A stretch of DNA of 64,000 nt, taken from positions 111,233 to 175,232 of the forward strand of contig NZ_QTXL01000006.1 in the NCBI RefSeq assembly GCF_003461625.1, read 5' to 3'. The notes below the pieces were generated by a model. That model ran no database searches. It was not told the origin of the DNA and was given only the letters and a program-made list of their open reading frames with translations. Every line of letters starts with the position of its first letter. Position 1 is the stretch's first letter. The stretch is from Clostridium sp. AF15-31 (GTDB taxonomy: Bacteria; Bacillota; Clostridia; Lachnospirales; Lachnospiraceae). Below, in pieces: positions 8,219 through 30,678 of this stretch. A program made the translations under genes and the position numbers.

Positions 8219-8509
8219 ATGAAACCAAGATCAGAAGCAAGTAAAAACCTATATCAGATGATGCTTGACCGGGGCTATCCGGCGGAATTCTGCGAGGTTA
8301 TAACACAGAATCTGAATACAGATTTTACAGCCGGTCGTATGATCGGCTATTTGTCACATTATCAGACCCTTCCTATGGAGGAGGTCGTAGATGAGATGCT
8401 CGCGATCCTCACAGACCGCAACCGCATCATACAGAAAAAAGAACTGGAGCGTAACAACGCCAAGTGGAATGAATACCTGGCAAATGGCATTCCTAATGAC
8501 GGGGAGTAA
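8219..8509 (+). CDS. Conserved small protein, 96 aa
   Basis: A soluble, mostly helical protein with the segment MLDRGYPAEFCEVITQNL and a charged C-terminus. It resembles small uncharacterised proteins common in Lachnospiraceae; I know no function. It lies 45 bp after psd and is probably the last gene of the operon. Its stop codon falls inside the base of the long palindrome that follows, so the palindrome ends its mRNA. Confidence 0.65.
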   Translation: MKPRSEASKNLYQMMLDRGYPAEFCEVITQNLNTDFTAGRMIGYLSHYQTLPMEEVVDEMLAILTDRNRIIQKKELERNNAKWNEYLANGIPNDGE

Positions 8510-8739
8510 TGCCGAGATTCAGATATTTTATATTTATAATAATACCCCTATTGATATAACATGAACGAGATTTCGTTGTGAGAATGCACATTGCCAGTAA
8601 ATGCGGGTGCATGTTTGAGCCCAAAGGGCGAGTTTGCACAGGAGCATTTACGAATCAGGCATGTGCATCGAACAGAAATCGTAGTGTGTTATTCAATAGG
8701 GGTATTGTTATAAATAGAAGTATCTGAATCTCGCATTAT
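8508..8739. repeat. Long nested palindrome, copy A
   Basis: A near-continuous inverted repeat of about 230 nt between two convergent genes. The outer arm runs from the stop codon through CGAGATTCAGATA and AATACCCCTATTGA to the core, and its complement appears in order on the right side. The inner core contains GTAAATGC/GCATTTAC and an apical GAGCCC-AAA-GGGC hairpin. The same core, with different outer arms, occurs at 12125, 19103 and 30391; a diverged core occurs at 21175. It holds no gene. RNA from either strand would fold into one long rod. Confidence 0.8.
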
Positions 8740-8746
8740 CCCTGTT

Positions 8747-10069
8747 TTAGCCGATTCCGCCTAATGCGATTCCAAGTATTAAAACCAGAATGCAGATAGG
8801 GCAATAGACATATTTACAGATTGGCAGGAATTTGTCTGTGAACTTCTTTTCACGTCCAAGGTTTACCTGCTCCTCTACATATTTCTTACCGCATACCCAG
8901 AAAAACATGATTCCGGCAAGTCCTGCACCAAGCGGGCAGATATAGATGGACAGAACATCCATCCAGCCGGATACGATTCCCTGAATACAGATGGATACGA
9001 TCACGCCGATTCCTGCGATCACACCACAGGATAACTTGCGATTTAATCCGAGCTTTTCCTGAATCGTTGCGATCGGAGCTTCGTACAGATTGATCAATGA
9101 GGACAAGCCCGCAAAGAATACTGCAACGAAGAAGATCATGGCGATGATATGTCCGCCCGGCATAGATTTGAACAGGGCAGGCAGATAGATGAACATAAGT
9201 CCCGGACCGCCCTGGTCTAACTGCGCACCGGTCGTTGCCATAACCGGAATGATAACGAGGGCGGCAAGTAACGCAGCGATCGTATCAAATAAAGCAACCT
9301 GTCCGGCAGCTTCCGGTATATTTTCTTCATCCGGCAGATAAGAGCCATAGATCAGTGTCCCATTTCCTGCAACAGACAGGGAGAAAAATGCCTGACCAAG
9401 TGCGTAGATCCATGTCTTTGGATCGGAGAGAACCTTTGGCTCGATCCGGAAGATATATTTATATCCTTCGGCAGCACCTGGCTGGCAGGCGGTATAGATC
9501 GCAAGAATGATAAACAGGATAAAGAACAGAGGCATCAGGATCTTATTTGCCTTTTCGATTCCGTTTCCGATACCAAACATCAGAATGATAATGCCGACAG
9601 CGAGTGCAATGATCTGCCACAGGTTATTACCGAATGCAGAAGCGGTTGAGCCAAATGCGGCACCAAAGGATTCCACATTTTCCGGTGCAAGTGTTGAACC
9701 GGTAAATGCACCGATCATATATTTTAAGATCCAGCCCATTACGACAGTATAGCCGATCGCCATGGCAAGCGCGCCGAGTACCGGTATAAATCCAAGAATT
9801 TCGCCAAGCTTTCGTTTGCCCTTTGTTCCACAGGCATAGCCGAAAGCGTCGACCGGACCGGATTTGGTAGCACGTCCGAAACTCATTTCGCCGATCACAC
9901 CGGTGAATCCGATCAGGATAACGAATATGAAGTAAGGGATCAGATAAGAGCCTCCGCCATAGAGGGATACTCTGGTTGGGAACATCCAGATATTACCCAT
10001 GCCGACCGCTGAGCCGATACAGGCGAGGACAAATCCCCATTTGTTGTTAAATGATTCACGTTTTTTCAT
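8747..10069 (-). CDS. Neurotransmitter:sodium symporter family transporter
   Basis: The 440-residue protein has about 11 helices. TM1 carries GSAVGMGNIWMFP, the Na+/substrate-binding unwound segment of the LeuT/SNF family, and TM6 carries GQAFFSLSVAGNG. Members take up amino acids or related compounds with Na+. The specific substrate cannot be told. The gene converges on the phospholipid operon across palindrome A and is divergent from the NERD gene. Confidence 0.9.
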   Translation of the reverse strand: MKKRESFNNKWGFVLACIGSAVGMGNIWMFPTRVSLYGGGSYLIPYFIFVILIGFTGVIGEMSFGRATKSGPVDAFGYACGTKGKRKLGEILGFIPVLGALAMAIGYTVVMGWILKYMIGAFTGSTLAPENVESFGAAFGSTASAFGNNLWQIIALAVGIIILMFGIGNGIEKANKILMPLFFILFIILAIYTACQPGAAEGYKYIFRIEPKVLSDPKTWIYALGQAFFSLSVAGNGTLIYGSYLPDEENIPEAAGQVALFDTIAALLAALVIIPVMATTGAQLDQGGPGLMFIYLPALFKSMPGGHIIAMIFFVAVFFAGLSSLINLYEAPIATIQEKLGLNRKLSCGVIAGIGVIVSICIQGIVSGWMDVLSIYICPLGAGLAGIMFFWVCGKKYVEEQVNLGREKKFTDKFLPICKYVYCPICILVLILGIALGGIG

Positions 10070-10249
10070 CTTTTGATAACTCCTCCAAACAAATTACATA
10101 CCCATATACTATACAGGAAAATGTGGGATTACGCCAGCAAACTTTTCGAAAGTTTTCATGGTGTGGCAGAAAAGAATGTTGTTATTGTCATATTACCGTA
10201 GAATTTATATAATAGGGGCATCCGAGAAAAGTATAAGGGGAGGTATGTT

Positions 10250-10996
10250 ATGAGCTGGCCAATTTGGGTTATAATAGGTTTTGCTGTAGCGGGTATATTA
10301 GTTGGATGGCTGCAGGCAAAGGTTAAAGGAATAATCGGGGAAAAGAAAGTATCGGTGGTTTTAGCGACATTACCAGATAGTGATTATATTATTTTAAATG
10401 ATGTGATGCTGCCGACAGAAAAGGGAAGTACTCAGATTGATCATATTGTTGTTTCTTTATATGGAATTTTTGTAATTGAGACGAAGAATTATAAAGGATG
10501 GATTACAGGAAGTCCATATGCTGAGCAATGGACAAAAAATATGTATGGTAAAAAATATAAATTTTATAATCCAATACGACAGAATTATGGTCATATAAAA
10601 AATTTGAGCACAATATTGGGATTGTCGGAAGAAAAATTTATATCCATTGTTGCTTTTTCAGCAAATTCAACAATAAAAGTAAAAAGTAGAGATTATGTGG
10701 TTCATATTTTACAGGTGAAAAAGGTTATAAAATCATATAAAGAACCTGTTTTTACACAAGATGAAATCAAACAGTTGGCGGATCGAATAAAGACAATTAA
10801 TGAAGCATCTAGCGACCTGAGAGTTGGACATGTTAAGAGAATTAAGGAAGCGCAGAATATCAGAAAAAATAATAAGGAAGTTCAGCGAATCTGTCCTAAA
10901 TGTGGCGGAAAAATAGTATATAAAAGAGGAAAATATGGTAAATTTCTGGGATGCACGAATTATCCCAACTGCAGATATACAAAAGAGATGAAATGA
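10250..10996 (+). CDS. NERD-domain protein with C4 zinc finger
   Basis: The order is an N-terminal membrane helix (residues 3-20), a NERD nuclease-related domain (about 25-135, with [18 protein letters not shown] holding the D...E-x-K catalytic triad of the PD-(D/E)XK fold), a linker, and a C-terminal topoisomerase-type C4 zinc finger (CPKCGGK... to CTNYPNC). Length 248. Members probably process DNA at the membrane; none of the family's roles is firmly known. AGGGGAGG precedes the ATG. The gene ends 13 bp before metF but is functionally unrelated. Confidence 0.85.
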
Positions 10997-11009
10997 CAGG
11001 AGGAAATAC

Positions 11010-11879
11010 ATGAAGATAAGAGATATTATAGGGCAGGAGAAAGCAACATTGTCATTTGAGGTTTTTCCACCGAAGAAGGATACAGATTTTGCAAGTGTGG
11101 AAGCTGCGGCACTTGGAATTGCGGCATTACGGCCGAGTTATATGAGTGTTACATATGGGGCGGGTGGCAGCACAAAAGGACATACGATCAAGCTTGCAAA
11201 TGAGATTCAAGAAAAATACGGAGTTCCGACGATTGCGCATCTGACCTGTGTATGCGCAAATAAAGACAGCATCCGGACAGCACTTTCTGAAATGAAAAAT
11301 GCAGGGATTGAAAATATCCTGGCACTTCGTGGGGATATTCCAAAGAATTATGATGGACAGGTATTTACTGATTTTACTCACGCATCGGAGCTGGTAAAAT
11401 TAATAAAAGAGAGCGGAGACTTCTGTGTGGGCGGAGCTTGTTATCCGGAGGTTCATCCGGATTCTGCAAACAAGCAGGATGATATTGCAAACCTGAAAAA
11501 GAAAGTGGAAGCGGGATGTGAATATCTGACTACACAGATGTTTTTTGATAACAATATTTTCTTTAATTTCATGTATCGTATCAGAGAAGCAGGGATTGCT
11601 GTGCCGGTGATTCCGGGAATCATGCCGATCACGAAGCGGGTTCAGGTGAAAAATGCCGTCAAATTATCCGGCTGCAATGTGCCGGAACGTTTCAAGAATA
11701 TTGTTGACCGGTTTGGAGATACCGAAGCTGCAATGAAGCAGGCAGGTATCGCTTATGCGACTGATCAGATCATAGATCTTCTGGCAAATGGCGTAAAGCA
11801 CATTCATGTATATTCCATGAACAAGCCGGAGGTGGCAGCAGGAATTCAGGCAAATCTGTCTGATATTTTGCTGGTTTAA
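11010..11879 (+). CDS. metF: 5,10-methylenetetrahydrofolate reductase
   Basis: A 289-residue TIM barrel of the MetF family. The start LSFEVFPPKKD carries the catalytic glutamate, and YGAGGST, the flavin-contact ALRGD, and CYPEVHP followed by QMFFDN are all in the expected order. It reduces methylene-THF to methyl-THF for methionine synthesis or, in acetogens, for the Wood-Ljungdahl methyl branch. The ribosome site CAGGAGG is strong. No partner genes adjoin it. Confidence 0.95.
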   Translation: MKIRDIIGQEKATLSFEVFPPKKDTDFASVEAAALGIAALRPSYMSVTYGAGGSTKGHTIKLANEIQEKYGVPTIAHLTCVCANKDSIRTALSEMKNAGIENILALRGDIPKNYDGQVFTDFTHASELVKLIKESGDFCVGGACYPEVHPDSANKQDDIANLKKKVEAGCEYLTTQMFFDNNIFFNFMYRIREAGIAVPVIPGIMPITKRVQVKNAVKLSGCNVPERFKNIVDRFGDTEAAMKQAGIAYATDQIIDLLANGVKHIHVYSMNKPEVAAGIQANLSDILLV

Positions 11880-12012
11880 GAGATGTACGATTTTTTGTGC
11901 ATATAAAACTGTAATATAAAGCCATAAACGGGTTGACTGTATAAAAAATACAGGAAATTCAAAGAAAATCGGAACTTTATAGGACAGAACGAATGTACAG
12001 GAGATCGGAATT

Positions 12013-12117
12013 ATGATAAAAGGATATTTTGTAACGGAAGGTTATATGGGATATGTAGATGGAAGATACCAGCTTTTTGCGGATGAAACAGATTATATTG
12101 AATACATGGAAGAATAG
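12013..12117 (+). CDS. Small conserved protein, 34 aa
   Basis: A short ORF with AGGAG 10 nt upstream of its ATG. The peptide contains EGYMGYVDGRYQLFA and ends DYIEYMEE. Short proteins of this pattern (GYMG-DG-Y-LFA-E-DY-EYM) are, as far as I recall, frequent in Lachnospiraceae, with no known function. It ends 7 bp before palindrome B, mirroring how the other palindromes follow stop codons, which supports its being a real gene. Confidence 0.6.
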   Translation: MIKGYFVTEGYMGYVDGRYQLFADETDYIEYMEE

Positions 12118-12124
12118 AATCTGG

Positions 12125-12362
12125 AAGCGTCATTCTTGCAGAGACATTTCTGTATAATCAGCTACTCACTATATATAACTCGCTGTGGTTTCTATTCCAT
12201 GCACACGCCTGATTCGTAAATGCTCCTGTGCAACTCGCCTTCGGCTCATACAAGCACTCGCATTTACTTGCAATGTGCATGTCATAACGAAATCCTCGCT
12301 GATGTTATATTATAGTGAATAGCTGGTTATACGGAAATGCTTTTGCAAGAATGCCGCTTTTT
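12125..12362. repeat. Long nested palindrome, copy B, with terminal T-run
   Basis: The outer arms begin AAGCGTCATTCTTGCA on the left and end in its near complement TGCAAGAATGCCGCTT on the right, which runs straight into TTTTT. The inner core matches copy A in reverse orientation (GTAAATGCTCCTGTG, loop ACTCGCC-TTC-GGC). The middle arms (CACTATATATAAC and partner) are unlike copy A but still pair. The GC-rich base with T-run has the form of a giant intrinsic terminator for the small gene before it. Confidence 0.8.
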
Positions 12363-12506
12363 ATAATTCTTTCATAATTGAACTGTTGTTTTATGCGAAT
12401 GCTAATAGTAACATGTGTAGTATATGAAAATAATAAGAATATAATTTTGAACCTGGTGAGTGCAAGATTGTAAAATTGAGAAAACAGGAAAGGATGATGG
12501 TTATAG

Positions 12507-13481
12507 ATGTGTACAGCAGCGACGTATAAAACGAAGGATTTTTATTTTGGCAGAACATTAGATTATGAATTTTCTTATGGGGATGAGATTACGGTGACAC
12601 CGAGAAAGTTCCCGTTTGAGTTTCGTCATATGGGAAAGAGGGATTCTCATTATGCGATCATTGGCATGGCGCATGTGGCAGGTGGATATCCGCTTTATTA
12701 TGATGCGATCAATGAAAAGGGTGTCGGTATGGCGGGACTTAATTTTGTTGGAAATGCAGTTTATCAGGCAGTAGAAGCTGGTAGGGATAATGTTGCACAG
12801 TTTGAATTTATCCCGTGGATACTTGGACAGTGTGCGGATCTGGACGAGGTACGGGCATTGCTTGACCGGATGAATCTGGTCGGAACACCTTTCAGCGAAC
12901 AGCTTCCATCGGCACAGTTACACTGGATCATAGCAGATCGGAATGCTGCGATCACAGTTGAGTGTATGGCGGATGGAATGCATATACATGAAAATCCGGT
13001 CGGAGTTCTCACGAACAATCCACCATTTGAGACACAGATGTTTTTATTGAATAATTATCAGGGCTTATCTCCGAAACAGCCGGAAAATACTTTCGCAGAG
13101 CAGCTGCAGTTACAGTCTTACAGCAGGGGCATGGGTGCACTTGGTTTGCCGGGAGATCTGTCGTCAGCGTCACGATTTGCAAAGGTCGCATTTACAAAAA
13201 TGAATTCGAAATCCGGTGACAGCGAGGCGGAGAGTATCAGCCAGTTCTTCCATATTCTTGGATCGGTTGATCAGCAGCGTGGATGCTGTGAAGTGACAGA
13301 TGGCAAGTATGAGATTACACTCTACACCTCCTGCTGTAATGCAGATAAAGGAATCTATTATTATACAACATACGAAAACCACCAGATCACAGGTGTGGAT
13401 ATGCACCATTGTGATCTGGACGGTTCCGAGCTTTTTAGGTATCCACTGGTTCAGGGAGAACAGATCCACTGGATGAATTGA
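12507..13481 (+). CDS. Choloylglycine hydrolase family protein (bile salt hydrolase or penicillin V acylase)
   Basis: The second residue is the nucleophile Cys2, freed when Met is removed (Ntn hydrolase). The key family residues follow: Arg16 and Asp19 in GRTLDYE, the Asn of AGLNFVGN, the paired Asn in LTNNPPF and the Arg of SSASRFAKVAF. Length 324 is normal. It should hydrolyse an amide bond of conjugated bile acids or of penicillin V and N-acyl-homoserine lactones. Bile salt hydrolase is more likely for a gut species, but sequence alone does not settle it. There is no signal peptide, so it is cytosolic. Confidence 0.88.
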   Translation: MCTAATYKTKDFYFGRTLDYEFSYGDEITVTPRKFPFEFRHMGKRDSHYAIIGMAHVAGGYPLYYDAINEKGVGMAGLNFVGNAVYQAVEAGRDNVAQFEFIPWILGQCADLDEVRALLDRMNLVGTPFSEQLPSAQLHWIIADRNAAITVECMADGMHIHENPVGVLTNNPPFETQMFLLNNYQGLSPKQPENTFAEQLQLQSYSRGMGALGLPGDLSSASRFAKVAFTKMNSKSGDSEAESISQFFHILGSVDQQRGCCEVTDGKYEITLYTSCCNADKGIYYYTTYENHQITGVDMHHCDLDGSELFRYPLVQGEQIHWMN

Positions 13482-13554
13482 CACACCTATTTGGCAGAAT
13501 GTAAAATGGTGGGAGAAAAAATGTTATAGAGGCATTGCGAGGTGAAAACACAAA

Positions 13555-14181
13555 ATGAATTATTATATCAGTGATCTGCATTTCTGCTGTGCCAGCCAGC
13601 TCGCAGGCAGCGGAAGCGGATATGACGAAAGAGAATATAAGACACTGGAAGAAATGCATGCCGATATGCTTGCCAGATGGAACCGGAAGGTGACAAACGG
13701 AGATACGGTCTATATCCTCGGCGACATCAGTAAGCGGGGAAAAAGTGAAGAATTGATTGCACTCGTTGCGCAGTTAAAAGGACATAAGATTCTTGTGCAT
13801 GGGAACCATGATGATCTGTCAGATTACAGGCTCCGGCAGTTATTTGAGGAGGTTTGTAATTACAAAGAGATTACAGACAACATTCGAGGAAATGCATATA
13901 AGCTGGTGCTTTGTCATTATCCAATTCTGTTCTGGAATGGTCAGCATAGAGGAAATATCCTGTTGTATGGGCATACACACCGATCCCCAGAGGATGTGTT
14001 TTTTCAGGACTGCATAAAGCGGTTGAATGAACGCAAGGATCTTCATGAGGAAGACCAGGATTTCTTGGCGATCAATGTCGGTTGTATGCAGCCTTATATG
14101 AATTATGAGCCACAGTCATTGAAGGAACTGTTAGAAGCAAGAGGAATTGAGATTCCGGAAAAAAAGAAAAAAGGAAGGTAA
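13555..14181 (+). CDS. Calcineurin-like metallophosphoesterase
   Basis: All metal-binding motifs are present in order: SDLHF (Asp7, His9), LGDIS, GNHDD, a lone histidine in LCHYPI and GHTH. Length 208. It resembles the small stand-alone phosphoesterases found beside phage- and repair-related genes in Firmicutes. The substrate is unknown. It is followed after 6 bp by the 79-aa gene, and the two are likely one transcript. Confidence 0.85.
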   Translation: MNYYISDLHFCCASQLAGSGSGYDEREYKTLEEMHADMLARWNRKVTNGDTVYILGDISKRGKSEELIALVAQLKGHKILVHGNHDDLSDYRLRQLFEEVCNYKEITDNIRGNAYKLVLCHYPILFWNGQHRGNILLYGHTHRSPEDVFFQDCIKRLNERKDLHEEDQDFLAINVGCMQPYMNYEPQSLKELLEARGIEIPEKKKKGR

Positions 14182-14187
14182 TTTCAG

Positions 14188-14427
14188 ATGAAAAGTACAT
14201 TAATTAAAGATACAACAAAATCAGAACGAATTGCACTTGTAAAACAATGGGAGGAAGAAGAAGGCTGTGAGAATTCCGGTATGAATTTGATGGAATATTT
14301 CAGAGATTACATTGATGGCAAGAAAGAAATTGCAGAAGTAAATGCTGCATTTCGCACAAATTATGTAGTAGAAACACCGGAGACAGAAGAAAAGCCTATG
14401 TGTGGCATGGGCGGAAGAAGATTTTAA
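14188..14427 (+). CDS. Hypothetical protein, 79 aa
   Basis: An acidic, helical small protein with a Gly/Cys/Arg-rich tail (CGMGGRRF). It lies 6 bp after the phosphoesterase gene, with GGAAGG close upstream of its ATG. No recognisable family. Confidence 0.55.
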   Translation: MKSTLIKDTTKSERIALVKQWEEEEGCENSGMNLMEYFRDYIDGKKEIAEVNAAFRTNYVVETPETEEKPMCGMGGRRF

Positions 14428-14451
14428 GTGTATAATTATTATTCTTATCAA

Positions 14452-14497
14452 AATGACCGGAACGGCAAAAAAATAAAAAATTGCCGCTCTGGTCATT
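14452..14497. promoter_or_regulatory. Inverted repeat 1 in the AbiE promoter (candidate operator)
   Basis: CGGCAA and TTGCCG flank an A-rich 12-nt spacer (14463-14486), extended outward by AATGACC/GGTCATT. The same core occurs again at 14539-14562. AbiEi antitoxins are known to repress their own promoter by binding inverted repeats. This copy overlaps the predicted -35 box. It might also work as a weak terminator of the gene before it. Confidence 0.5.
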
Positions 14498-14524
14498 GCC
14501 TTTTATTATAAAAGATGTTATCCT
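14496..14524 (+). promoter_or_regulatory. Candidate promoter of the AbiE pair
   Basis: TTGCCT (14496-14501), a 17-nt spacer and TATCCT (14519-14524). It lies between the two inverted repeats, so both would control it. Confidence 0.45.
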
Positions 14525-14527
14525 ATT

Positions 14528-14562
14528 AATGACCATATCGGCAAAAAAATAAAAATTTGCCG
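14528..14562. promoter_or_regulatory. Inverted repeat 2 in the AbiE promoter (candidate operator)
   Basis: AATGACC, four bases, then CGGCAA, an A-rich spacer and TTTGCCG. This is a near copy of the repeat at 14452-14497 and covers the predicted transcription start. Confidence 0.5.
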
Positions 14563-14620
14563 AACGAGACAATGAAACGGTTAGAAAAAGAGGAAAGGAG
14601 GATTCCAATTACAGATTGGA

Positions 14621-15364
14621 TTGTATGGAAGAATGAAAAATATGGATTTATTGATAAGAATACCTGATGGAATAATATCAAGAAAAGAATTGATGCAGCT
14701 TGTGATTGAGGTACAACCGGAGTTTCGTGAAGGACAGATGAAGCGATTAATAGAATATTGGATTCGAATGTCAGAGATAGAAAGAGTTGGTCGTGATAAA
14801 TACAAGAAGTGTACATCAGGAGAACATCTGAAAAAATATACAAATATCTATACAGACAGATCAAAAAAAATAATAGATGAGATGGAGCAGAAATTTCCAT
14901 TGGTGGATTATAGAATATGGGAACTTCGATGGTTGAATGAATTTTTTAATCATCAGGTAGGATATAATTATATTTTTTTAGAAGTTGAACATACAGGATG
15001 TGAATTTGTGTTTGATCAGTTAATAGTTGAAAATAAAAAGGTTCTTTTTAAGCCAAGTGTAGAAGATGTATTGCGTTATGCAACATATGAAACAATATTG
15101 CTAGATCGTCTTGTCAGTGAGTCTCCGAAAGGGGAAAGTTCGGCGTATGGTCTTTCACTGGAAAAGCTGGTAGTTGATTTGTTTGCCAATAAAAAATTGA
15201 AGCAGATGCTTTCATTTTCTGATTATCCACAGGCCTTGGAAAATATGTTTTCCATGTACAAAATTGATGAAACAAAGTTATTTCGATATGCACGGAGGCG
15301 TAATAAAGAAATTGAAATTCGGGATTTTATAAAAGATAACACGAACATACAACTGATTGTATAG
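14621..15364 (+). CDS. AbiEi-like antitoxin/regulator (DUF6577-like) of a type IV toxin-antitoxin pair
   Basis: The protein has 247 residues counted from a TTG at 14621; an ATG at 14633 is an alternative, and neither has an ideal ribosome site (AAAGGAGG is about 20 nt upstream). The N-terminal 70 residues (ISRKELMQLV... to ERVGRDKYK) look like a winged helix, followed by the AbiEi-type domain with FPLVDYRIWELRWLNEF and FKPSVEDV. It ends 8 bp before the AbiEii toxin gene. In AbiE systems this protein both neutralises the toxin and represses the operon. The family is assigned by pattern and by its partner. Confidence 0.7.
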   Translation: MYGRMKNMDLLIRIPDGIISRKELMQLVIEVQPEFREGQMKRLIEYWIRMSEIERVGRDKYKKCTSGEHLKKYTNIYTDRSKKIIDEMEQKFPLVDYRIWELRWLNEFFNHQVGYNYIFLEVEHTGCEFVFDQLIVENKKVLFKPSVEDVLRYATYETILLDRLVSESPKGESSAYGLSLEKLVVDLFANKKLKQMLSFSDYPQALENMFSMYKIDETKLFRYARRRNKEIEIRDFIKDNTNIQLIV

Positions 15365-15372
15365 GAGATTGG

Positions 15373-16413: not shown

Positions 16414-16502
16414 AAACATCGAGAGGAGCAATATCCGATGGCAGCAAATAAATGAAAACGGGAAGAAAATGGTAATGCTGTTTTGCAGGATATTGTGATA
16501 GA

Positions 16503-18389: not shown

Positions 18390-18540
18390 GGGAAGCTCCT
18401 TTCTTTTTTTATATTTTAATCAGAACTATATAAAAATACAACCCGCAAATTGGACAGTGCGTGTATATACGATTGGATAAGAAAAGGTAAAAAAGATAAA
18501 AATAATTGAAATAAATACCAAATACTATCCGTTTGGTTAG

Positions 18541-18570
18541 TGTACAAAAAGTGGTGCAGGGTGATATAAT
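18541..18570 (+). promoter_or_regulatory. Promoter of the candidate small RNA
   Basis: A perfect TATAAT (18565-18570) with an upstream TG (extended -10); TGTACA (18541-18546) stands 18 nt upstream as a partial -35. It points at the structured stretch ending in a strong terminator at 18691. No ORF lies between. Confidence 0.55.
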
Positions 18571-18576
18571 TTGACT

Positions 18577-19094: not shown

Positions 19095-19102
19095 CAAAAA
19101 TA

Positions 19103-19373
19103 TCGCAATCAAAATAAACTGTTTATAAGCAGTATAACATTAGACAGATATATCCACTCGGAAAATATCAATGCATTTTCTATTCGATACACATGTCTGA
19201 TTCACAAATGCTCCTGTGTGAACTCGCCCTTTGGGCTCAGACATACACCCGCATTTGTTGACAATGTGTATCTTATAACGAAAAATGCATTGAATTCTTT
19301 TCCGGGTGGATATATTTGTCTAATGATTAAATGCATGCGTACAGGCAGTTTATTTTGATTGCGAAGTTTTTTT
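19103..19373. repeat. Long nested palindrome, copy C, with terminal T-run
   Basis: The base TCGCAATCAAAATAAACTG (19103-19121) pairs with its complement ending at 19364, followed by AAG and seven T. The middle arms (TTAGACAGATATATCCAC and partner) also pair. The core matches copies A, B and E (AAATGCTCCTGTG, ACTCGCCC-TTT-GGGC). It begins 9 bp after the copZ-like stop codon and looks like an oversized intrinsic terminator for it. Confidence 0.8.
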
Positions 19374-19629: not shown

Positions 19630-19655
19630 GCAGAGCTGGAGGAGAGCATAAGAAT

Positions 19656-21167
19656 ATGAACTGGAATCGAAAAGAACTGAGAAAAGGCGCGTGGAACACG
19701 GTGTTTAAGCGTGGAACGATGGCGTGGCTTGCACTGGTTGCAGTCTGCTTCATCTTTGCATTTTTAGGTGTCGATGAATTTGCACAGTCGACATTTGTAA
19801 ATGGGATTGATAAGGCAATCGGACTGGATACTTCGCATGTAGCAAGTAACGTGGAAATCTTAAAAGACTATGCTGTAAATACACCGATTGTAAAGGATGT
19901 TCCGTTTATACATTCAGATTTTGTGATCGGACTGATCGATGTTGCTTCCAAGAGTCAGACATGGATCATTAAGCTGTTAGGCGCAAATGCCGCCTATCTG
20001 GAACGTAATACCGGAGAAGTGATCATTGCACTTCTGTTATCCGCATTTATTATGATGATCGTGCATTTCTTCATTCAGAGTGCAGCCATCGTTGGAAAGA
20101 ATCGGTATGCGATGGAGTGTCGGTACAGTGATAAAGTATCGATCAACCGTATGTTTGCACCATTTCATTTTAAACATTTATTGAGATTGATCTGGACAAT
20201 GTTCGTATATAAGGTGGTTCTGTTTTTATGGAATCTTACGATCGTCGGTGGTATATACAAATTCTATCAGTATCGGATGATCCCGTATCTTGTTGCGGAG
20301 AATCAGACACTTAGCTGGAAAGAGGCAAAAGCTTTATCCAAAGAAATGACAAATGGATACAAATGGAAGATGTTCGTAACAGATCTGTCCTGTATTCCTG
20401 TTATGCTGTTAAAGCTTGTTCCGATTGCCGGTCTGTTAGTAGCAGTACCGTTTGATGTAGAGATCGACGTGGAGATGTATTTTCATCTTAGAAAGAGAAT
20501 TGACAGTGAAGCATTTGTTGAGCGTGCATTTGACGGAGCACCATACTGTAAAGGTATAGAAACTGCTGTGCCGGTATATCTCTTGCAGGATGCAGCAGTA
20601 GAAGTACCAAAGGGAATCAAGATCAAGAGTGAATACCGGTTGACGGATTTCATCTTTTTCTTCTTCTCATTCTGTTTTGTCGGCTGGGTGTGGGAGGTTA
20701 TGCTCCATATCGTCAGAGATCATGAGCTTGTAAATCGTGGAACAATGTATGGACCGTGGCTTCCAATCTATGGTGTCGGAGGTGTCGTTATCATCTTCCT
20801 GTTAGACCGATTTAAGGCAGATAAATTGAAATTATTCTTGATGTCTATGGGTATCTGTGGCGTGCTCGAATATATCGCAAGCTGGATCCTGGATTTCTTC
20901 TTTAATTCCCACTACTGGAATTATAAGAAATTCTTCCTGAATTTAAATGGAAGGATCTGTCTGGTCGGCTTACTTGCATTTGGCATCGGAAGTCTGTTCG
21001 GTGTCTATATCGCGGCGCCGAAGCTCAGCCGCTTTATGCATAAGAAGAGCCGGAAAACACAGATCCTGATCTGCGCTGTCTTAAGCACAGCCTTTATCAT
21101 CGACCTGATCTGTTGTGCGTTATTTGGCTTCAATGCCGGATCCGGCGTAGGTGGAACTTATAACTAA
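19656..21167 (+). CDS. DUF975 / CmpB-type membrane protein
   Basis: The protein has 503 residues. The N-terminal half (about 1-290) matches DUF975: several helices and the cytosolic segment SWKEAKALSKEMTNGYKWKMF. The C-terminal half (about 325-500) matches the putative ABC-transporter type IV family CmpB (GWVWEVMLHIVRDHELVNRG, GPWLPIYGVGG). Both are uncharacterised membrane families of Firmicutes, and the fusion is known from Lachnospiraceae. No ATPase gene adjoins, so transport is unproven. The ribosome site GGAGGAGAG is good. Confidence 0.78.
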   Translation: MNWNRKELRKGAWNTVFKRGTMAWLALVAVCFIFAFLGVDEFAQSTFVNGIDKAIGLDTSHVASNVEILKDYAVNTPIVKDVPFIHSDFVIGLIDVASKSQTWIIKLLGANAAYLERNTGEVIIALLLSAFIMMIVHFFIQSAAIVGKNRYAMECRYSDKVSINRMFAPFHFKHLLRLIWTMFVYKVVLFLWNLTIVGGIYKFYQYRMIPYLVAENQTLSWKEAKALSKEMTNGYKWKMFVTDLSCIPVMLLKLVPIAGLLVAVPFDVEIDVEMYFHLRKRIDSEAFVERAFDGAPYCKGIETAVPVYLLQDAAVEVPKGIKIKSEYRLTDFIFFFFSFCFVGWVWEVMLHIVRDHELVNRGTMYGPWLPIYGVGGVVIIFLLDRFKADKLKLFLMSMGICGVLEYIASWILDFFFNSHYWNYKKFFLNLNGRICLVGLLAFGIGSLFGVYIAAPKLSRFMHKKSRKTQILICAVLSTAFIIDLICCALFGFNAGSGVGGTYN

Positions 21168-21174
21168 GGAAACG

Positions 21175-21461
21175 AATCCCCTCCGACAGATGATTATATA
21201 TGTAACATTTCACCTGTATTTCTTATATGGCAGTCAGGTGTTTTCTAACTATGACATTAGCATATTTTCGTTATGAGGTTTGCACTGGCTATCAGCATCA
21301 AGCCCATGTCCGAGTCCGTAAGGACGAGTTTGGGCGACTGCTGATAAACAAGCGTGCGAACCGAATAGAAAATAAAGCGAGTCATAGTAGAAAAATGACT
21401 AACTGCCATATAAGAAACACAGATAAAACCACATACATATAATCATCTGCCGGAGGGGTTT
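21175..21461. repeat. Long nested palindrome, copy D
   Basis: Outer arms AATCCCCTCCGACAGATG (left) and CATCTGCCGGAGGGGTTT (right), then paired middle segments (TTATATGGCAGT with ACTGCCATATAA). The core is diverged but keeps GAGTCC-GTAA-GGACGAGTTT. The outer arms are shared with copy E at 30391, showing a true repeat family. It fills the space between two convergent stop codons, starting 8 bp after one and ending 6 bp before the other. Confidence 0.8.
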
Positions 21462-21466
21462 CTATG

Positions 21467-22324: not shown

Positions 22325-22367
22325 AATTAGAACAAATACACAATATAAACTCTACTGTTTTTTACTA

Positions 22368-22424
22368 TATACCAAAATGCTAGATAAATGCAATAGTGAG
22401 ACAAAAATAATGCATTTTGGTATA
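22368..22424. promoter_or_regulatory. Perfect 13-bp inverted repeat (candidate AraC operator)
   Basis: TATACCAAAATGC (22368-22380) and GCATTTTGGTATA (22412-22424) are exact inverted copies with a 31-nt spacer; centre-to-centre distance is 44 bp, about four helical turns. It lies between the AraC gene and the transport operon and could allow looping or dimer binding. Confidence 0.55.
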
Positions 22425-22521
22425 AAAATGGAATTATTACGATATTTTAACAAGCATTATGATATGTTAGAATGAAAATAACTTAAAAAAGCATATTATA
22501 AAAGAAGGGAGAAATGTATTT

Positions 22522-23805: not shown

Positions 23806-23807
23806 AA

Positions 23808-24716
23808 ATGGATACAAAAAAGACAGAAGATATGAAGTTTGCTAAAAAGAAAAAGAAAATGTCCGGGAAATCCAGAACATTTATGTTGATCACAATTCCT
23901 ATCGTAGCATTATTCTTTACATTCAACACATTGCCGTTGATTCAGGGTGCGATTTACAGCTTTACCAATTTCCGTGGGTATGGCAGCTATGAGTGGGTTG
24001 GTTTTCGAAACTATATTGACCTTTTTCATGATGCCAGAGTTGGTTCATCCTATCTGTTTACATTTAAGCTGGCTATAGTAACAACGATCATCGTAAATGT
24101 TGTCAGCCTGATCCTTGCGATGGCATTAAACAGCAAGATTCGTTTTAAGAGCGGTCTTCGTGGACTGTATTTCCTGCCCAATATCTTAGGCGGTCTGGTT
24201 GTTGGTTATATTTTTAACTATTTCTTTACTTATATTCTGCCACAGATTGCAATCATGCTTGGTTTTGAGGGAAACAGTATGCTGGCAAGTTCTAAAACGG
24301 CCTGGCTTGCAATCGCAGTAGTATGTGCATGGCAGTCGATCGCAATGAATACGATCATTTATATATCCGGTCTTCAGACAGTTCCGGAAGATGTATACGA
24401 AGCAGGATCTTTAGATGGGGCAACCGGATTTGCAAAATTCCGTTATCTGACATTCCCACTGATCCTTCCGTTTTTTACAATTAATGTAGTCCTTTGTATG
24501 AAGAACTTCCTGATGGTATTTGACCAGATCATGTCGTTGACAAAGGGTGGTCCTGCGCAGAGCACAGAATCCATTTCCTACCTGATCTACAACAATGGTA
24601 TGAGTGGCGGACAGTTTGGATTCCAGAGTGCAAATGCAGTCGTATTCTTTATAGTAATCGTAGTGATATCTGTATTACAGATGCGTTTCCTGGGTAAGAA
24701 GGAGGAACAGTTATGA
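23808..24716 (+). CDS. ABC sugar permease (MsmF/RafF type)
   Basis: A 302-residue membrane protein with six helices and the binding-protein-dependent permease motif EAGSLDGATGFAKFRYLTFP (EAA loop) that contacts the ATPase. Its ribosome site GGAGGAATAG overlaps the stop codon of the binding-protein gene. It ends in ATGA overlap with the second permease. Confidence 0.9.
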   Translation: MDTKKTEDMKFAKKKKKMSGKSRTFMLITIPIVALFFTFNTLPLIQGAIYSFTNFRGYGSYEWVGFRNYIDLFHDARVGSSYLFTFKLAIVTTIIVNVVSLILAMALNSKIRFKSGLRGLYFLPNILGGLVVGYIFNYFFTYILPQIAIMLGFEGNSMLASSKTAWLAIAVVCAWQSIAMNTIIYISGLQTVPEDVYEAGSLDGATGFAKFRYLTFPLILPFFTINVVLCMKNFLMVFDQIMSLTKGGPAQSTESISYLIYNNGMSGGQFGFQSANAVVFFIVIVVISVLQMRFLGKKEEQL

Positions 24717-25597
24717 AAAAATCGCAGAGACAGATCAGAAAAGAATATAAAGAAAAGGGGATTAAGACAGGAAAAGAACGATATAATATCGGGGTTACGA
24801 TTCTGTTGATCCTTGGTCTTGTAACCATCCTGTTCCCATTATATATGACGGTTATGATCGCATTTAAGCAGCCGTCTGAGATGACAAATGATATCCATGG
24901 AATCTTATCTCTTCCACAGCACTGGAGTCTGAGTAATTTTAAGGAAGCTATGGAGGTAACAGATTTCTGGCATTCTCTCGGTAACAGTTTATTTATCACA
25001 CTGGCAACTATCGCATTATCGATCGTAATACATTCCCTGATCGGTTATGTACTTGGACGAAGCAAGAAAAAGAATCGGATCTATAATGGAATTTATCTTT
25101 ATCTTGTCAGTGGTATGTTCGTGCCATTTGCTATTTTGATGATGCCGCTCGTAAAACAGACAGCAAAAATAGGATTGGCAAATATGATTGGTGTGGTATT
25201 ACTTTATACAGTATTTTATCTTCCAATGAACACAATGTTATATGCAGGATATCTGAATAATCTTCCGCTTGAACTGGAAGAGGCAGCCTGTGTTGACGGA
25301 GCCACTACATGGACGACTTACTGGAAGATCATCTTCCCGAATATGAAACCAATGCATGCAACGGTTGCGATCCTTACAGCCCTTGGCACATGGAATGACG
25401 TTATGACACCGCTTGTAATTATGTCCGGTGATCAGAATACACTTCCGCTTGCGCAGCTGAATTTCCAGACTCAGTTTGGAACAAATTACAATCTGGCTTT
25501 TGCATCTTATCTGTTAGCGTTACTTCCGATTCTGATCTTCTACATTATTTGTCAGAAACAGATCATATCAGGTGTGGCAAACGGAGCAGTAAAATAA
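24713..25597 (+). CDS. ABC sugar permease (MsmG/RafG type)
   Basis: The second permease of the pair, 294 residues, six helices, EAA loop LEEAACVDGATTWTTYWKII. It starts inside the stop codon of the first permease (ATGA), which suggests translational coupling and equal amounts of the two subunits. Confidence 0.9.
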   Translation: MKKSQRQIRKEYKEKGIKTGKERYNIGVTILLILGLVTILFPLYMTVMIAFKQPSEMTNDIHGILSLPQHWSLSNFKEAMEVTDFWHSLGNSLFITLATIALSIVIHSLIGYVLGRSKKKNRIYNGIYLYLVSGMFVPFAILMMPLVKQTAKIGLANMIGVVLLYTVFYLPMNTMLYAGYLNNLPLELEEAACVDGATTWTTYWKIIFPNMKPMHATVAILTALGTWNDVMTPLVIMSGDQNTLPLAQLNFQTQFGTNYNLAFASYLLALLPILIFYIICQKQIISGVANGAVK

Positions 25598-25612
25598 AAG
25601 GAGACTTAATTT

Positions 25613-27790
25613 ATGGCTATTATATATAACAAAGAGAAAAGAATATTTTCTCTCCATACGGAACATACCACTTATCAGATGATGGCCGATACACATGATT
25701 ATTTGCTTCATCTGTATTACGGAAAACGCTTGGATTCGGAAATGGATTATATACTGACTTACTATGATCGAGGTTTTTCAGGAAATCCATATGATCTTGG
25801 AAACGATCGTACTTATTCCCTGGATGCACTTCCTCAGGAATTCCCTGTTCTTGGAACCGGTGATTACAGAACAACGGCAGGAAAGATCCGTGAAGCAAAT
25901 GGCTGTATGGCACTTGATCTTCGCTATACAGGATATCAGATTCAGGATGGTAAGTATGATCTCCCGGGACTTCCGGCAGCACATTCTGAAGCTGCACAGA
26001 CTCTGTGCATATATCTGAAGGACGAAAGAGTCGGTGTAGAGGTAACATTATTATATGGCGTATTACCTGACTGCGATGTAATAACCAGAAGTGTAAAAGT
26101 TACAAATGTCGGAAAGAATGAAATCTATCTGGAGAAGCTTTCCAGCGCATGTCTTGATCTTTTGTATGGAGATTATGATGTACTGACATTTTATGGACGG
26201 CATGCAATGGAACGGAATATGCAGCGAACACCGGTAACACATGGCAGACAGGTGATCGGAAGTAATCGTGGTACGTCCGGACATCAGTATAATCCATATA
26301 TGATCCTTGCGGAACACGGCACAACAGAGACCGCCGGAGCCTGTTATGGTATATCACTGGTGTACAGTGGAAGTTTTGAAGGAAGCGTAGAATTAGATCA
26401 GTTTGATCAGATCCGTCTGGTTATGGGTCTTCAGGAGGATTTCTTTTCCTATCAATTAAAGCCGGAGCAGACATTTTATGCCCCGGAAGCAGTTTTGTCA
26501 TATTCAGCGTATGGAATGGAACAGCTATCCAATCAGATGCATCATTTGGTGAGAGAGCATATCTGTCGCGGGAAATATAAAAATCAGATCCGTCCGGTTC
26601 TTGTAAATAGCTGGGAAGCCTGTTATTTTGATTTTAATGGTGAAGCGATCGTTAATCTTGCGGAGCAGGCTGCAGCACTTGGTGTGGAGCTTCTGGTCAT
26701 GGATGATGGCTGGTTTGGCACAAGAGATGATGATAATTCATCCCTTGGTGACTGGATTGTAAATGAAGATAAACTGGGCTGTTCTCTTACGGAGCTGACA
26801 AAACGGGTTCATGACAAAGGTGTTCAGTTTGGTATCTGGATAGAGCCGGAGATGGTTTCAGAAAACAGTGATCTTTACAGAAAACATCCGGAGTGGGCAA
26901 TTCAGGTTCCCGGTAAACATCCGGTACACGGCAGAAATCAGCTTGTACTTGATTTTGCAAATCCGGAGGTGGTGGATCATATCTATGAACAGATTGCAGC
27001 TGTCCTCAGGCAGGGCGATATCAATTATGTGAAATGGGATATGAATCGAAGCTTATGTGATATATATTCCGACAGTATGGTATGGCAGGGAAATGTAATG
27101 TATGACTATATGCTTGGTGTATATGACCTGCTGGAACGCCTGACGCAGGCATTTCCGGATATGTTATGGGAAGGCTGCTCCGGCGGTGGCGGAAGGTTTG
27201 ATATGGGTATGCTGTATTATACACCACAGATATGGTGCAGTGATAATACAGATGCAGTTGATCGTATCCGTATCCAGTATGGTACATCGTTTGCTTATCC
27301 TTTATCAACGATGGGAGCCCACGTATCTGCGGTGCCGAATCATCAGACCGGCAGAGTGACGGACATGAAGACCAGAGGTGTGGTTGCCATGACAGGTGCA
27401 TTCGGATATGAACTGGATCTTGGAAAGTTATCTGAGGAAGATAAGACGGCAGTCCGTGAACAGATCAAAACCTATCATGAAGCAGCACCGGTTATTTTAA
27501 AAGGGGATTATTACAGATTAAGTAATCCGTTTGAGGCGGAATATGGAGCATGGATGTCTGTCGATGAAGAAAAAAAACATGCAGTTGTAGGTGCTGTTTT
27601 ATTAAATACACATGGTAATCATCCTGTATTTTATATTCGATTGAGAGGGCTTGCGCCGGAACGTTCCTATCGGGATAAGAAAACAGGTACTGTTTATTCA
27701 GGAGCTGCTTTGATGGAGCTCGGTATGCCGTTTACGGTAGTATCCGGTAATTATCCAAGCTATCAGATCCTGCTTGATGCAGTAGAATAA
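25613..27790 (+). CDS. Alpha-galactosidase, GH36
   Basis: The protein has 725 residues, the GH36 subgroup I length. The nucleophile is Asp476 in VKWDMNRSL and the acid/base is in WCSDNTDA (Asp544 region); LVMDDGWFGTRDDD is the substrate pocket and CSGGGGRFD the conserved loop. There is no signal peptide, so it acts in the cytosol on imported raffinose, stachyose or melibiose, releasing galactose. In Ruminococcus gnavus the same domain is fused to a sucrose kinase (AgaSK); here the kinase-like part is the next, separate gene. Confidence 0.95.
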   Translation: MAIIYNKEKRIFSLHTEHTTYQMMADTHDYLLHLYYGKRLDSEMDYILTYYDRGFSGNPYDLGNDRTYSLDALPQEFPVLGTGDYRTTAGKIREANGCMALDLRYTGYQIQDGKYDLPGLPAAHSEAAQTLCIYLKDERVGVEVTLLYGVLPDCDVITRSVKVTNVGKNEIYLEKLSSACLDLLYGDYDVLTFYGRHAMERNMQRTPVTHGRQVIGSNRGTSGHQYNPYMILAEHGTTETAGACYGISLVYSGSFEGSVELDQFDQIRLVMGLQEDFFSYQLKPEQTFYAPEAVLSYSAYGMEQLSNQMHHLVREHICRGKYKNQIRPVLVNSWEACYFDFNGEAIVNLAEQAAALGVELLVMDDGWFGTRDDDNSSLGDWIVNEDKLGCSLTELTKRVHDKGVQFGIWIEPEMVSENSDLYRKHPEWAIQVPGKHPVHGRNQLVLDFANPEVVDHIYEQIAAVLRQGDINYVKWDMNRSLCDIYSDSMVWQGNVMYDYMLGVYDLLERLTQAFPDMLWEGCSGGGGRFDMGMLYYTPQIWCSDNTDAVDRIRIQYGTSFAYPLSTMGAHVSAVPNHQTGRVTDMKTRGVVAMTGAFGYELDLGKLSEEDKTAVREQIKTYHEAAPVILKGDYYRLSNPFEAEYGAWMSVDEEKKHAVVGAVLLNTHGNHPVFYIRLRGLAPERSYRDKKTGTVYSGAALMELGMPFTVVSGNYPSYQILLDAVE

Positions 27791-27801
27791 GAATAAATAG
27801 G

Positions 27802-27835
27802 ACTCCCCGGTTTCTGTTTGCAGAGATCGGGGAGT
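27802..27835 (+). other. Hairpin between alpha-galactosidase and kinase-like genes
   Basis: ACTCCCCG and CGGGGAGT enclose a second stem TTTCTG/CAGAGA. No T-run follows, so it is more likely an mRNA processing or stabilising hairpin than a full terminator. It may lower expression of the two downstream genes relative to the transporter. Confidence 0.5.
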
Positions 27836-27894
27836 TTGGCAAGAACAATAGAGTAAAAGATATATAAGATGATCAGAAATGAGGTGACGGACAG

Positions 27895-28722
27895 ATGGAT
27901 ACGAAAGAAATTACAGTATCGGATCTGGCGCAGGAACAGATCAAAAACGCAGAACGATTATTTCCGTTGATCCGGAAAAAAACAGAAGAAAGAAAAGAGA
28001 AAAAAACAGTCATATCGGTATCCGGAGGTTCTGGTGTTGGTAAGACCGGAATGGCTTTCTTACTTCAAAATATGTTTGAAAAACAGGGAAAGAAATCACT
28101 TATTATAAGCGGGGACAATTATCCGCATCGGATTCCCATGTATAATGATGCAGAACGAATTGCGAGATTTCGTATGTCCGGGTTAAATGGACTTATAACT
28201 GAAAGGCTATATACAGATAAAGTAAAAGAAAAACTATTAGAGCTTCAAAAAGCCGGAAGGGATGCAGAAGAACAGGAGGACATGCAGTGGTTATCCATAT
28301 ATCAGAAGTATGGAGACAAGGCTCTTACAGACTATCTGGGTACGGATCAGGAACTGGATTATGAAGCTATATCGAATCTTCTCATGCAGTTTCATGGAGG
28401 AACCTCACAACTGCTGCTACGTCATATGGGAAGAACCCCGGATGATATCTGGTATGATCGCAGGGATGTATCAGATACAGATATTCTGATCCTTGAATGG
28501 ACACATGGAAACAGTGCATACCTGCAGGGGGTGGATGTATCTGTTGTATTGATCAGTACGCCGGAAGAAACACTTGAAAACCGAAAGAAGAGGAATCGTG
28601 ACACTGCCATTGACAGTCCCTTTGTAGCCAGAGTATTAAGAATTGAGCAGAAGAAGATTAATGATGGACTGGATCGGGCAGATATCATTCAGGATATGCA
28701 TGGCAGGATTTATACGGAATAG
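27895..28722 (+). CDS. P-loop kinase, sucrose-kinase-like (AgaSK C-terminal-type)
   Basis: A Walker A motif GGSGVGKT (residues 44-51) near the N-terminus and a Walker B-like DILILEWTHGN further on define a P-loop kinase of the adenylylsulfate/uridine kinase type, 275 residues. In Ruminococcus gnavus AgaSK, a domain of this kind follows the GH36 part and phosphorylates sucrose to sucrose-6-phosphate. Its place between a GH36 enzyme and a GH13_18 phosphorylase supports the same role. I infer the substrate from context; assay data are absent. Confidence 0.72.
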   Translation: MDTKEITVSDLAQEQIKNAERLFPLIRKKTEERKEKKTVISVSGGSGVGKTGMAFLLQNMFEKQGKKSLIISGDNYPHRIPMYNDAERIARFRMSGLNGLITERLYTDKVKEKLLELQKAGRDAEEQEDMQWLSIYQKYGDKALTDYLGTDQELDYEAISNLLMQFHGGTSQLLLRHMGRTPDDIWYDRRDVSDTDILILEWTHGNSAYLQGVDVSVVLISTPEETLENRKKRNRDTAIDSPFVARVLRIEQKKINDGLDRADIIQDMHGRIYTE

Positions 28723-28746
28723 TAAGTGAACAGGAGGTTATAGAAT

Positions 28747-30384
28747 ATGAGGAAAACAGAGATAGAAGAAACAACTATGACAGATATAAATAAAATTGAA
28801 AATGGTCCAATGCTGAATCTGTATCCGGACAGTCTTGGCGGAGATCTGGAAGCTGTTGCGGATTTATTTGAAAGAGATGGATTTGCAGATGCATTTTCCT
28901 CAATGTATATACTACCGAGTATTTACCATTCTGATCTGGATCGTGGTTTTTCTGTAATCGACTATGATCTTGAGGAGACATTTCATTCTGAAAAGGCACT
29001 ATTACGGTTGGGCAGACAGAATATAGATCTGAAGCTGGATTTTGTGTTAAACCATGCGTCTGTACAGTCGCCACAGTTTCAGGATCTGTTGGAGAATGGC
29101 AGTCGATCGGAATATCGTGACTTTTTTATTAACTGGAATACATTCTGGGAAAACTGTGGAGAAATGACAGAAGACGGCTATATACAACCGGAACAGAAGT
29201 ATTTGGATCCAATGTTCTTCCGCAAACCGGGATTACCTCTGTTGATGGTGGAAATGGCAGATGGCAGTCGGATTCCATACTGGAATACGTTTTATCAGGA
29301 GATTCGGGATACTGAGGATTATCATACCAGATATTTGGGACAAATGGATCTCAATATTAAATCAGAAAAGGTCTGGGACTTTTACCGTGAAACCATAAAA
29401 AAACTGGCAGGTTACGGAGCAAAGATAATCCGTCTGGATGCATTTGCATATGCCCCAAAAGCACCGGGACGCGCCAATTTCTTAAATGAACCGGAGACAT
29501 GGGAATTCCTTGAACAGATCCATAAGCTTGCAAAACCATATGGAATCCGCCTTCTTCCGGAGATTCATGCCGGATATAAAGAGAAAAAGTATAAGCTGAT
29601 AGCAGAGAAGGGATATCTGACATATGACTTTTTCCTTCCGGGATTGATCCTGGATGCTCTTTACAGAGGCGATGGCTCTTACCTGGAGCAGTGGGCAAAG
29701 GAACAGATAAAAGAGAATATTCATACTGTGAATATGCTTGGATGCCATGATGGAATACCGGTACTGGATCTTGCCGGATTGTTGCCGGACAACAGGATTG
29801 AAGATCTGATCCGGCTGCTTGTGGATCGTGGTGGTTTTGTAAAGGATCTTCACGGTAATAAAAAGATGTATTATCAGGTAAATACGACATATTATAATGC
29901 ACTTGGCGAAAATGAACAGGCATTGTTATTAGCCAGAGCATTGCAGATATTTATGCCCGGAAAACCTCAGGTCTGGTATTTGGATCTGTTTGCCGGATCT
30001 AATGATTATGAGGCAGTGAAGCGTGCGGGTGCAGGTGGACATAAAGAGATCAACCGGACGAATCTTTCACAAAAAGATATAGAGTCAGGCCTTGAAAAGG
30101 AGGTCGTAAAAAAGCAGCTTGAAATGTTGAAATTCCGGAAAGAATTTCCGGCATTTGGATTTGATGCGGAAATGACAATCCGGACAAAGCCTGCAGCGCA
30201 GATCTCCGCTCAGGCAGAAAATGCTTTGCATTTTGCAGAACTACCGGCGGACCAGATGTATAACCGTATTTATATCACCTGGAAAAAGGATGGTTATCTT
30301 GCCCGCCTGTCCGCAGACCTTAAAGCCCATACCTATCGGATTCAGGCTCTTGATCCATCCGGTAACCTGGTCTGGCAGTCGTAA
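28747..30384 (+). CDS. GH13_18 sucrose or sucrose-6-phosphate phosphorylase
   Basis: The catalytic set of sucrose phosphorylase is present: nucleophile Asp231 in RLDAFAYAPK, acid/base Glu272 in LLPEIHAGY and Asp335 in LGCHDGIPVLD. The start LYPDSLGGDL is typical. Length 545. The pairing with a sucrose-kinase-like gene suggests the substrate is sucrose-6-phosphate, giving glucose-1-phosphate and fructose-6-phosphate, as reported for R. gnavus. Plain sucrose remains possible. AGGAGG is 9 nt before the ATG. It is the last gene of the operon, which ends at palindrome E. Confidence 0.88.
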   Translation: MRKTEIEETTMTDINKIENGPMLNLYPDSLGGDLEAVADLFERDGFADAFSSMYILPSIYHSDLDRGFSVIDYDLEETFHSEKALLRLGRQNIDLKLDFVLNHASVQSPQFQDLLENGSRSEYRDFFINWNTFWENCGEMTEDGYIQPEQKYLDPMFFRKPGLPLLMVEMADGSRIPYWNTFYQEIRDTEDYHTRYLGQMDLNIKSEKVWDFYRETIKKLAGYGAKIIRLDAFAYAPKAPGRANFLNEPETWEFLEQIHKLAKPYGIRLLPEIHAGYKEKKYKLIAEKGYLTYDFFLPGLILDALYRGDGSYLEQWAKEQIKENIHTVNMLGCHDGIPVLDLAGLLPDNRIEDLIRLLVDRGGFVKDLHGNKKMYYQVNTTYYNALGENEQALLLARALQIFMPGKPQVWYLDLFAGSNDYEAVKRAGAGGHKEINRTNLSQKDIESGLEKEVVKKQLEMLKFRKEFPAFGFDAEMTIRTKPAAQISAQAENALHFAELPADQMYNRIYITWKKDGYLARLSADLKAHTYRIQALDPSGNLVWQS

Positions 30385-30390
30385 TGTGTA

Positions 30391-30678
30391 AATCCCCTCC
30401 GACAGATGGTTATACATATGGGGCTTTATCTGTATTTCCTATCTGGCAGTCAGCCGTTTTTTACTATGACTTGCTATGATTTCTGTTTGCTGCATATGCC
30501 TGATTCGTAAATACTCCTGTGCCAACTCGCTCTTTGAGCTCGAACAGGCACCCGTATTTACTGGCAATATGCAGCTCACAACGAAATCTTCGCAAATGTC
30601 ATAGTTAGAAAACGTCTGATGACCATATAAGAAATACAGGTAAAACGCTACGCATATAACCATCTGTCGGAGGGGATT
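30391..30678. repeat. Long nested palindrome, copy E
   Basis: Outer arms AATCCCCTCCGACAGATGG and CCATCTGTCGGAGGGGATT, shared with copy D. The middle arms pair (CTGTATTTCCTAT with the complement ATAAGAAATACAG; CTATGAC with GTCATAG). The core matches A to C (GTAAATACTCCTGTG, ACTCGC-TCTTT-GAG). It starts 7 bp after the phosphorylase stop codon. Bases 30679-30753 hold ATTCGAGTG/CACTCGAAT, a second hairpin that may terminate the minus-strand gene. Confidence 0.8.

Follow-up and report, generated by a model that had tools for sequence, protein, structure and literature searches.

A hairpin repeat family with locus-unique, self-pairing arms in intergenic 3' regions, possibly shaped by replication template switching

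What are the very large palindromes that lie beside gene ends in a 64,000-nt stretch of contig NZ_QTXL01000006.1 (the window, in which coordinates count from the first letter), and where do their arms come from? Five near-spacerless inverted repeats of 230-290 nt had been reported in the initial annotation, and all of them were recovered at the places claimed:

8508..8739, + strand: palindrome A, core 8557-8693 (+), with arms of about 49 and 46 bp beyond the core
12125..12362, - strand: palindrome B, core 12174-12307 (-)
19096..19373, - strand: palindrome C, core 19162-19298 (-)
21174..21462, + strand: palindrome D, core 21252-21386 (+), subtype I
30391..30678, - strand: palindrome E, core 30465-30601 (-), subtype II, with arms in common with D

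Their folding energies, with both strands folded, are -104.9 to -148.9 kcal/mol. They are best explained as copies of an undescribed, non-coding, non-autonomous, high-copy hairpin repeat in intergenic 3' regions, similar to repetitive extragenic palindromic (REP) sequences and miniature inverted-repeat transposable elements (MITEs). As to the arms, we see about an even chance that the hairpin repeat provokes template switching during replication, and in this way writes locus-unique palindromes that stop near coding sequence.

The five palindromes are one family with one covarying hairpin core. A covariance model, R1, was made from 34 aligned cores of the window and of G001, the nearest genome compared. 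It picks out exactly A-E in the window (99.6 to 146.4 bits), a recovery that is not independent, since all five were used to train the model. The core, of which there are two sequence subtypes, forms a hairpin of about 140 nt, with conserved ends (TGACAT..GAGTCA, from alignments) and conserved, partly unpaired stretches (TTTCGTTATGAG / CGAATAGAAA and TGTYTGA / GAGTT). Palindrome D, of which only the apex was thought to be kept, in fact carries the entire core structure in a different sequence subtype. Across 95 cores, 94.4% of cells are standard-paired compared with 74.4% in shuffled controls, and two-sided changes are found in 32 of 33 base pairs of the core (705 cells vs 216 shuffled). These figures favour the structure, as the alignment had been fitted to the model; with partners shifted by 1-3 columns, pairing is 23-44%. 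Conservation of the unpaired stretches suggests selection on the core.

R1 finds 93 matches in G001 (E <= 0.01) and none in four congeners of G001, one of which is represented by a genome only 79% complete. At E <= 0.001, at least 29 of 397 genomes of the family (probably Lachnospiraceae, to judge from named protein relatives) have matches, G001 counted; this is a lower bound, as eight candidates were scored per genome. Order-wide, 14 of 392 genomes match at E <= 1e-4, all of them from the same family. Phages and plasmids, with one query each, gave no match to the repeat, and none was found at E <= 0.1 in 80 loci (1.34 Mb) that are named neighbourhoods of a window protein. The structured-family idea had been made to depend on a covariance model search finding more copies, and on paired changes among them; both were found. 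Its lack of a named match also stands: Rfam 15 gives no match in the window and, for four loci at E <= 10, nine matches that are all under the gathering score, and no description was found in the literature, in a search with preprints and most subscription journals outside its scope. This is a real repeat family with no description found. The patchy distribution, together with near-identical copies in genomes G302, G373 and G247, speaks for a mobile element. Among 18 pairs of G001 copies less than 600 bp apart, 13 are oriented '-+', three '++', two '--' and none '+-'.

Outside the core, the arms are unique to their loci. Beyond about 20 nt from the inner core, copies are no more conserved than background. 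The copies examined in G001 number 87 (of the 93 matches, three were set aside as the weakest and three for want of sequence), and in 83 of them the arms pair over at least 40 positions, with a median of 65 bp at 82%, measured outward from the inner core. When the left arm of one copy was set against the right arm of a random other copy (87 trials), there was no pairing, the best case reaching 17 positions with a score of 2.5. The four remaining copies have short arms or none. One of these is the copy at 471426 (L018 ~1597-1715), where a foreign hairpin-forming sequence interrupts the core. An arm resembling that of another copy is seen in eight of the 80 long-armed copies (>=45), which form four pairs; the other 72 have no arm relative above the null. 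The early statement that outer arms differ and yet each self-pairs is therefore borne out at genome scale.

Cores and arms can part company, as is seen in both directions. Near-identical cores carry unrelated arms in the G001 pairs 218869/228358 (98%), 2639781/969394 (96%) and 2051210/494044 (95%), while other pairs have arms in common. Conversely, D and E have 75-80 bp arms in common (81-90% identity in four comparisons) with different core subtypes. A spacer inversion was considered for D and E and is not supported; the two resemble opposite copies of one element. A spacer-like origin of arms was also dropped: blast of D and of the A+B stretch against G001 gave core-centred matches, and among the matches listed arms matched only at the loci of D and E themselves. 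In another genome, loci L274 and L275 (G302) have near-identical arms, and their inner core stems differ on both strands with pairing intact, as if the centre had been swapped as a block.

A conventional palindromic MITE would have arms that are long terminal inverted repeats moving with the core, divided into old subfamilies, with pairing kept by selection for transposition or by arm conversion. The arms in common between D and E fit this, as do the patchy distribution and the recent copies in G302, G373 and G247, which have whole arms in common with sharp outer ends, so that arms there travel with the element. However, a MITE of this kind does not readily account for 72 of 80 G001 copies lacking an arm relative despite similar cores, for near-identical cores with unrelated arms, or for native gene ends copied inverted into arms (below), and we consider it doubtful.

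For some arms, the gene ends beside them point to a source. At 429951 in G001, one arm takes in the final codons of a reading frame of 547 residues, and the opposite arm, across the core, holds an inverted copy of this gene end (19/20 nt). The coding end is native, because homologue tails agree and the gene in an element-free genome ends alike. The two closest homologues end FIIEKLELS and the next four ERLELV or similar; 39 of the 40 homologue tails compared stop near the corresponding residue, the other one being a fragment; and in the congener G004, where R1 finds nothing, the gene ends FIIARIELV with no such palindrome following. A second case is 2910786, where the opposite arm holds the inverted end of a MetQ-like gene (19/19 nt, with an indel in the copy). 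This end is native too, as PDB chain 4ib2 (ending GAVIPFE) aligns up to the second-last residue. At these two loci at least, the outer arms are copies of host DNA. At 1279640, the end of a methionine aminopeptidase gene, native as judged by homologues, is copied at 13/15; an HtpG-like gene lies opposite, and its end may be the acquired one. For a Fur-like gene at 2051210, whose tail might be native or acquired, homologues at 71-76% identity carry other tails. Comparisons with empty sites, made for G302 locus L101 against two sibling genomes and for the 429951 gene against congeners, met downstream DNA that was unalignable.

Stop codons are also clustered at palindrome ends. Between the inside of an arm and 60 nt outside, there are 70 gene ends, 20 of which overlap an arm. 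In 52 of 83 copies at least one palindrome end has a stop codon within 20 nt, and in 12 both ends do, compared with 10% for shifted positions. The neighbouring open reading frames (ORFs) of the 83 copies are convergent in 36 cases, co-directional in 43 and divergent in four. In the window, a stop codon had been claimed near all five palindromes, and the ORF list agrees in four cases (A, C, D and E, at no more than about 8 nt from the palindrome end); for B there is only a short open frame, judged by eye, with its end about 7 nt away. The left arm of A starts inside the stop codon of ORF 8219-8509, and D occupies the whole gap between two ORFs that converge on it, with stops at 21167 and 21467. 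Gene-end overlaps, stop clustering and ORF orientations match the expectation for arms that extend through inverted flank copying and stop where selection protects genes. A strict antisense orientation of the core to the gene was considered and dropped, the co-directional copies being divided 22 vs 21. Stops within 50 nt were counted by hand at 45 of 57 on the right side of the core and 27 of 58 on the left.

Template switching creates and homogenises inverted repeats, according to excerpts of PMC8794818 and PMC8604942. Under this reading, a replication fork would meet the hairpin, and the nascent strand would sometimes switch template and copy the flank just made. An inverted copy of one flank (3' untranslated region (UTR), sometimes with the last codons) would then be placed on the other side of the core, and the palindrome would grow outward until coding sequence is reached. 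Later, arms may drift, be re-homogenised by more switching or be deleted, while cores may be swapped between copies by recombination and the element may be mobilised in trans. The finished palindrome, frequently with T-tracts beyond its two ends, would probably serve as a bidirectional terminator. We infer all of these parts, namely template switching, arm growth, core exchange, termination and mobilisation in trans, from the patterns described. In eight comparisons, some including the same copy, arms in common between paralogues differ by 33 two-sided Watson-Crick changes. Such changes also fit template switching; selection would give them too. Arm covariation is therefore no proof of selection on RNA, since stems can be formed and mended through template switching at replication, with no selection at work (excerpts of PMC8794818).

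An alternative is that each palindrome is a structured 3'-UTR RNA or giant terminator, with arm pairing maintained by selection on the transcript. Its location at the 3' side of genes (only four of 83 copies are between divergent ones) and the conserved unpaired core stretches are in line with this. T-tracts (at least 6 T in 8) are found at 64 of 166 palindrome ends, against a background of 9%. In the reading direction of the gene they are about equal upstream and downstream (16 and 14 of 43), a pattern as in bidirectional terminators. G-U is also over-represented on the transcribed strand (arms 95 vs 61, p = 0.008, for 43 co-directional copies of 83; cores 25 vs 15), so transcription seems to matter a little. 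However, G-U is barely above A-C, both in the core (53 vs 44 of 3122 cells) and in arm mismatches beyond 25 positions (G-T 159, A-C 128), and curated RNA families usually have far more G-U. The orientation of cores to genes is mixed, and the copy of a coding end across the core is not explained by selection. Transcript selection as the main cause of arm pairing thus seems improbable. The initial annotation had proposed selection on the folded form; for the core this is suggested by the conserved unpaired stretches, and for the arms it is not the simplest reading in view of the gene-end copies at two loci and the slight wobble excess. Its suggestions of a mobile palindromic element and of a giant terminator are each still compatible with the data.

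Comparison of the window with G001, where aligned stretches are 97-99% identical, shows presence/absence polymorphism between the two strains. D and E are retained in G001, arms included. A is absent (216 bp). At C, G001 has the arms and lacks 98 bp at the apex, and as part of the core remains there, the difference is a deletion. One further site is filled in G001 only:

30694..30747, strand not applicable: plain 20-bp hairpin in the window; the G001 site is filled by another complete copy (G001 228358)

This window hairpin is asymmetric, as a deletion would leave, and is either an asymmetric remnant or an empty site. A check for target-site duplications at A, C and 30694 showed a deletion at C, and the others may be deletions as well; for A and 30694, deletion is preferred to an empty site. 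At B (L033 in G001), the flanks are the same in both strains and the core is related (identity 0.898, the best in G001, the next being 0.859), and both arms differ between strains, each set self-pairing.

These sites also bear on the idea that the core inserts into the loops of existing long hairpins, such as terminators, with arms that are host DNA palindromic beforehand. Several arms do end in C-rich stems followed by T-tracts, and the plain hairpin at 30694 stands where the G001 site is filled. On the other hand, the longest core-less palindrome in a scan of the window is 28 bp (39040-39102), the bare form at C is a deletion with a core remnant, and the 30694 hairpin has the asymmetry left by deletion. 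Loop insertion is accordingly thought very unlikely.

Several observations count against arm growth by template switching. The replacement of both arms of B, with core and flanks kept, is poorly explained by switching in a single step. The G001 allele at A keeps the outermost arm sequence only, and deletion fits this as well as insertion. Arms are in common in the four G001 copy pairs and in the recent copies of G302, G373 and G247, and the transcribed-strand G-U excess fits some selection on RNA. Of the 70 gene ends, only nine reach 12 nt or further into an arm, and one of these, 2315641, is probably a spurious ORF. Finally, the stretch from gene end to core, which is most of each arm, is untraced, with sister loci unalignable.

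The window also carries one copy of a second repeat family with the same build:

59932..60118, + strand: palindrome F, second repeat family, core of 82 nt at about 59984-60065

This family is unrelated to R1 in sequence, and blast gives 29 matches to it in G001, of which several are partial. In 11 copies (F and ten in G001, including the orthologue of F), the 82-nt core lies between self-pairing arms of 30-72 aligned positions, and arm sequence is in common only for the orthologous pair. Arms of different copies, as a control, pair over a median of 12 positions and up to 37 without orthologues, so that the three shortest arms (30-33) are not beyond the control. The second family hints at a general process. 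A wider and more tentative reading, to which we give perhaps a quarter of our belief, is that small hairpin elements live by palindromising host DNA, with two unrelated core families turning their flanks, gene ends included, into locus-specific inverted repeats, perhaps during insertion.

Bacterial MITEs and ERIC-like repeats are short, non-coding, multi-copy, patchy in distribution and hairpin-forming, and the element is like them in all of these features. Unlike MITEs, its arms in G001 are not constant terminal repeats, whereas in G302, G373 and G247 they are in common. It resembles intrinsic terminators in having a hairpin after a stop codon and T-tracts outside many ends, and differs in that the hairpins are 230-290 nt long with a conserved internal core common to many loci. 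As in REPs and the mosaic elements built from them (BIMEs), the copies are numerous palindromes outside genes, for the most part on their downstream side, with convergent or co-directional ORFs as neighbours, and often occur in inverted pairs (excerpts of PMC3733652). The same excerpts describe REPs as 20-40 bp long and tagged at one end by GTAG or CGTC, whereas the element's core is about 140 nt with locus-unique arms of up to about 130 bp; it has neither the size nor the tag of a REP. A REP driven by a REP-associated tyrosine transposase (RAYT) is rejected, as Y1-type transposase genes do not track the element: PF01797 is over the cut-off in six of 12 genomes and in none of the element-bearing G302, G373, G317 and G695, there is only a 30-position match in G001, and the domain is present in the element-free congeners G002 and G005. 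The likeness to template-switch quasipalindromes lies in inverted flank copying, homogenised arms and multi-base paired changes; unlike those in excerpts of PMC8794818 and PMC8604942, the present palindromes are linked to defined repeat families with scores of copies, and their arms reach about 130 bp.

If template switching is the correct reading, a single genome contains scores of template-switch products that arose naturally around a defined hairpin. These could be used to measure how hairpins create palindromes, how arm complementarity is kept up and how coding sequence halts growth. It would also be a warning that mutation can produce paired changes, which are usually taken as proof of a functional RNA stem, and the repeat family would be a new intergenic component in gut bacteria of this family.

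In G302, copies fall into groups with arms in common that end at a 26-bp palindromic junction, of the type GTTTCATAAAG-TATAG-TTTATGAAAC (loci L302, L301, L311, L312). The same junction bounds another palindromic cassette and a short-repeat array, both non-coding, and these are partly in tandem with shared junctions. The junction looks like a recombination site, and the G302 element seems to move whole, perhaps via a site-specific recombinase. TATA at the junctions is only suggestive as a target-site duplication. A partial search of this one genome, between the palindromic junctions examined, found no transposase-bearing autonomous relative. In G373 (L105-L109), four element copies have another repeat, about 100 bp long, next to them, and it is also found inside an arm of L108.

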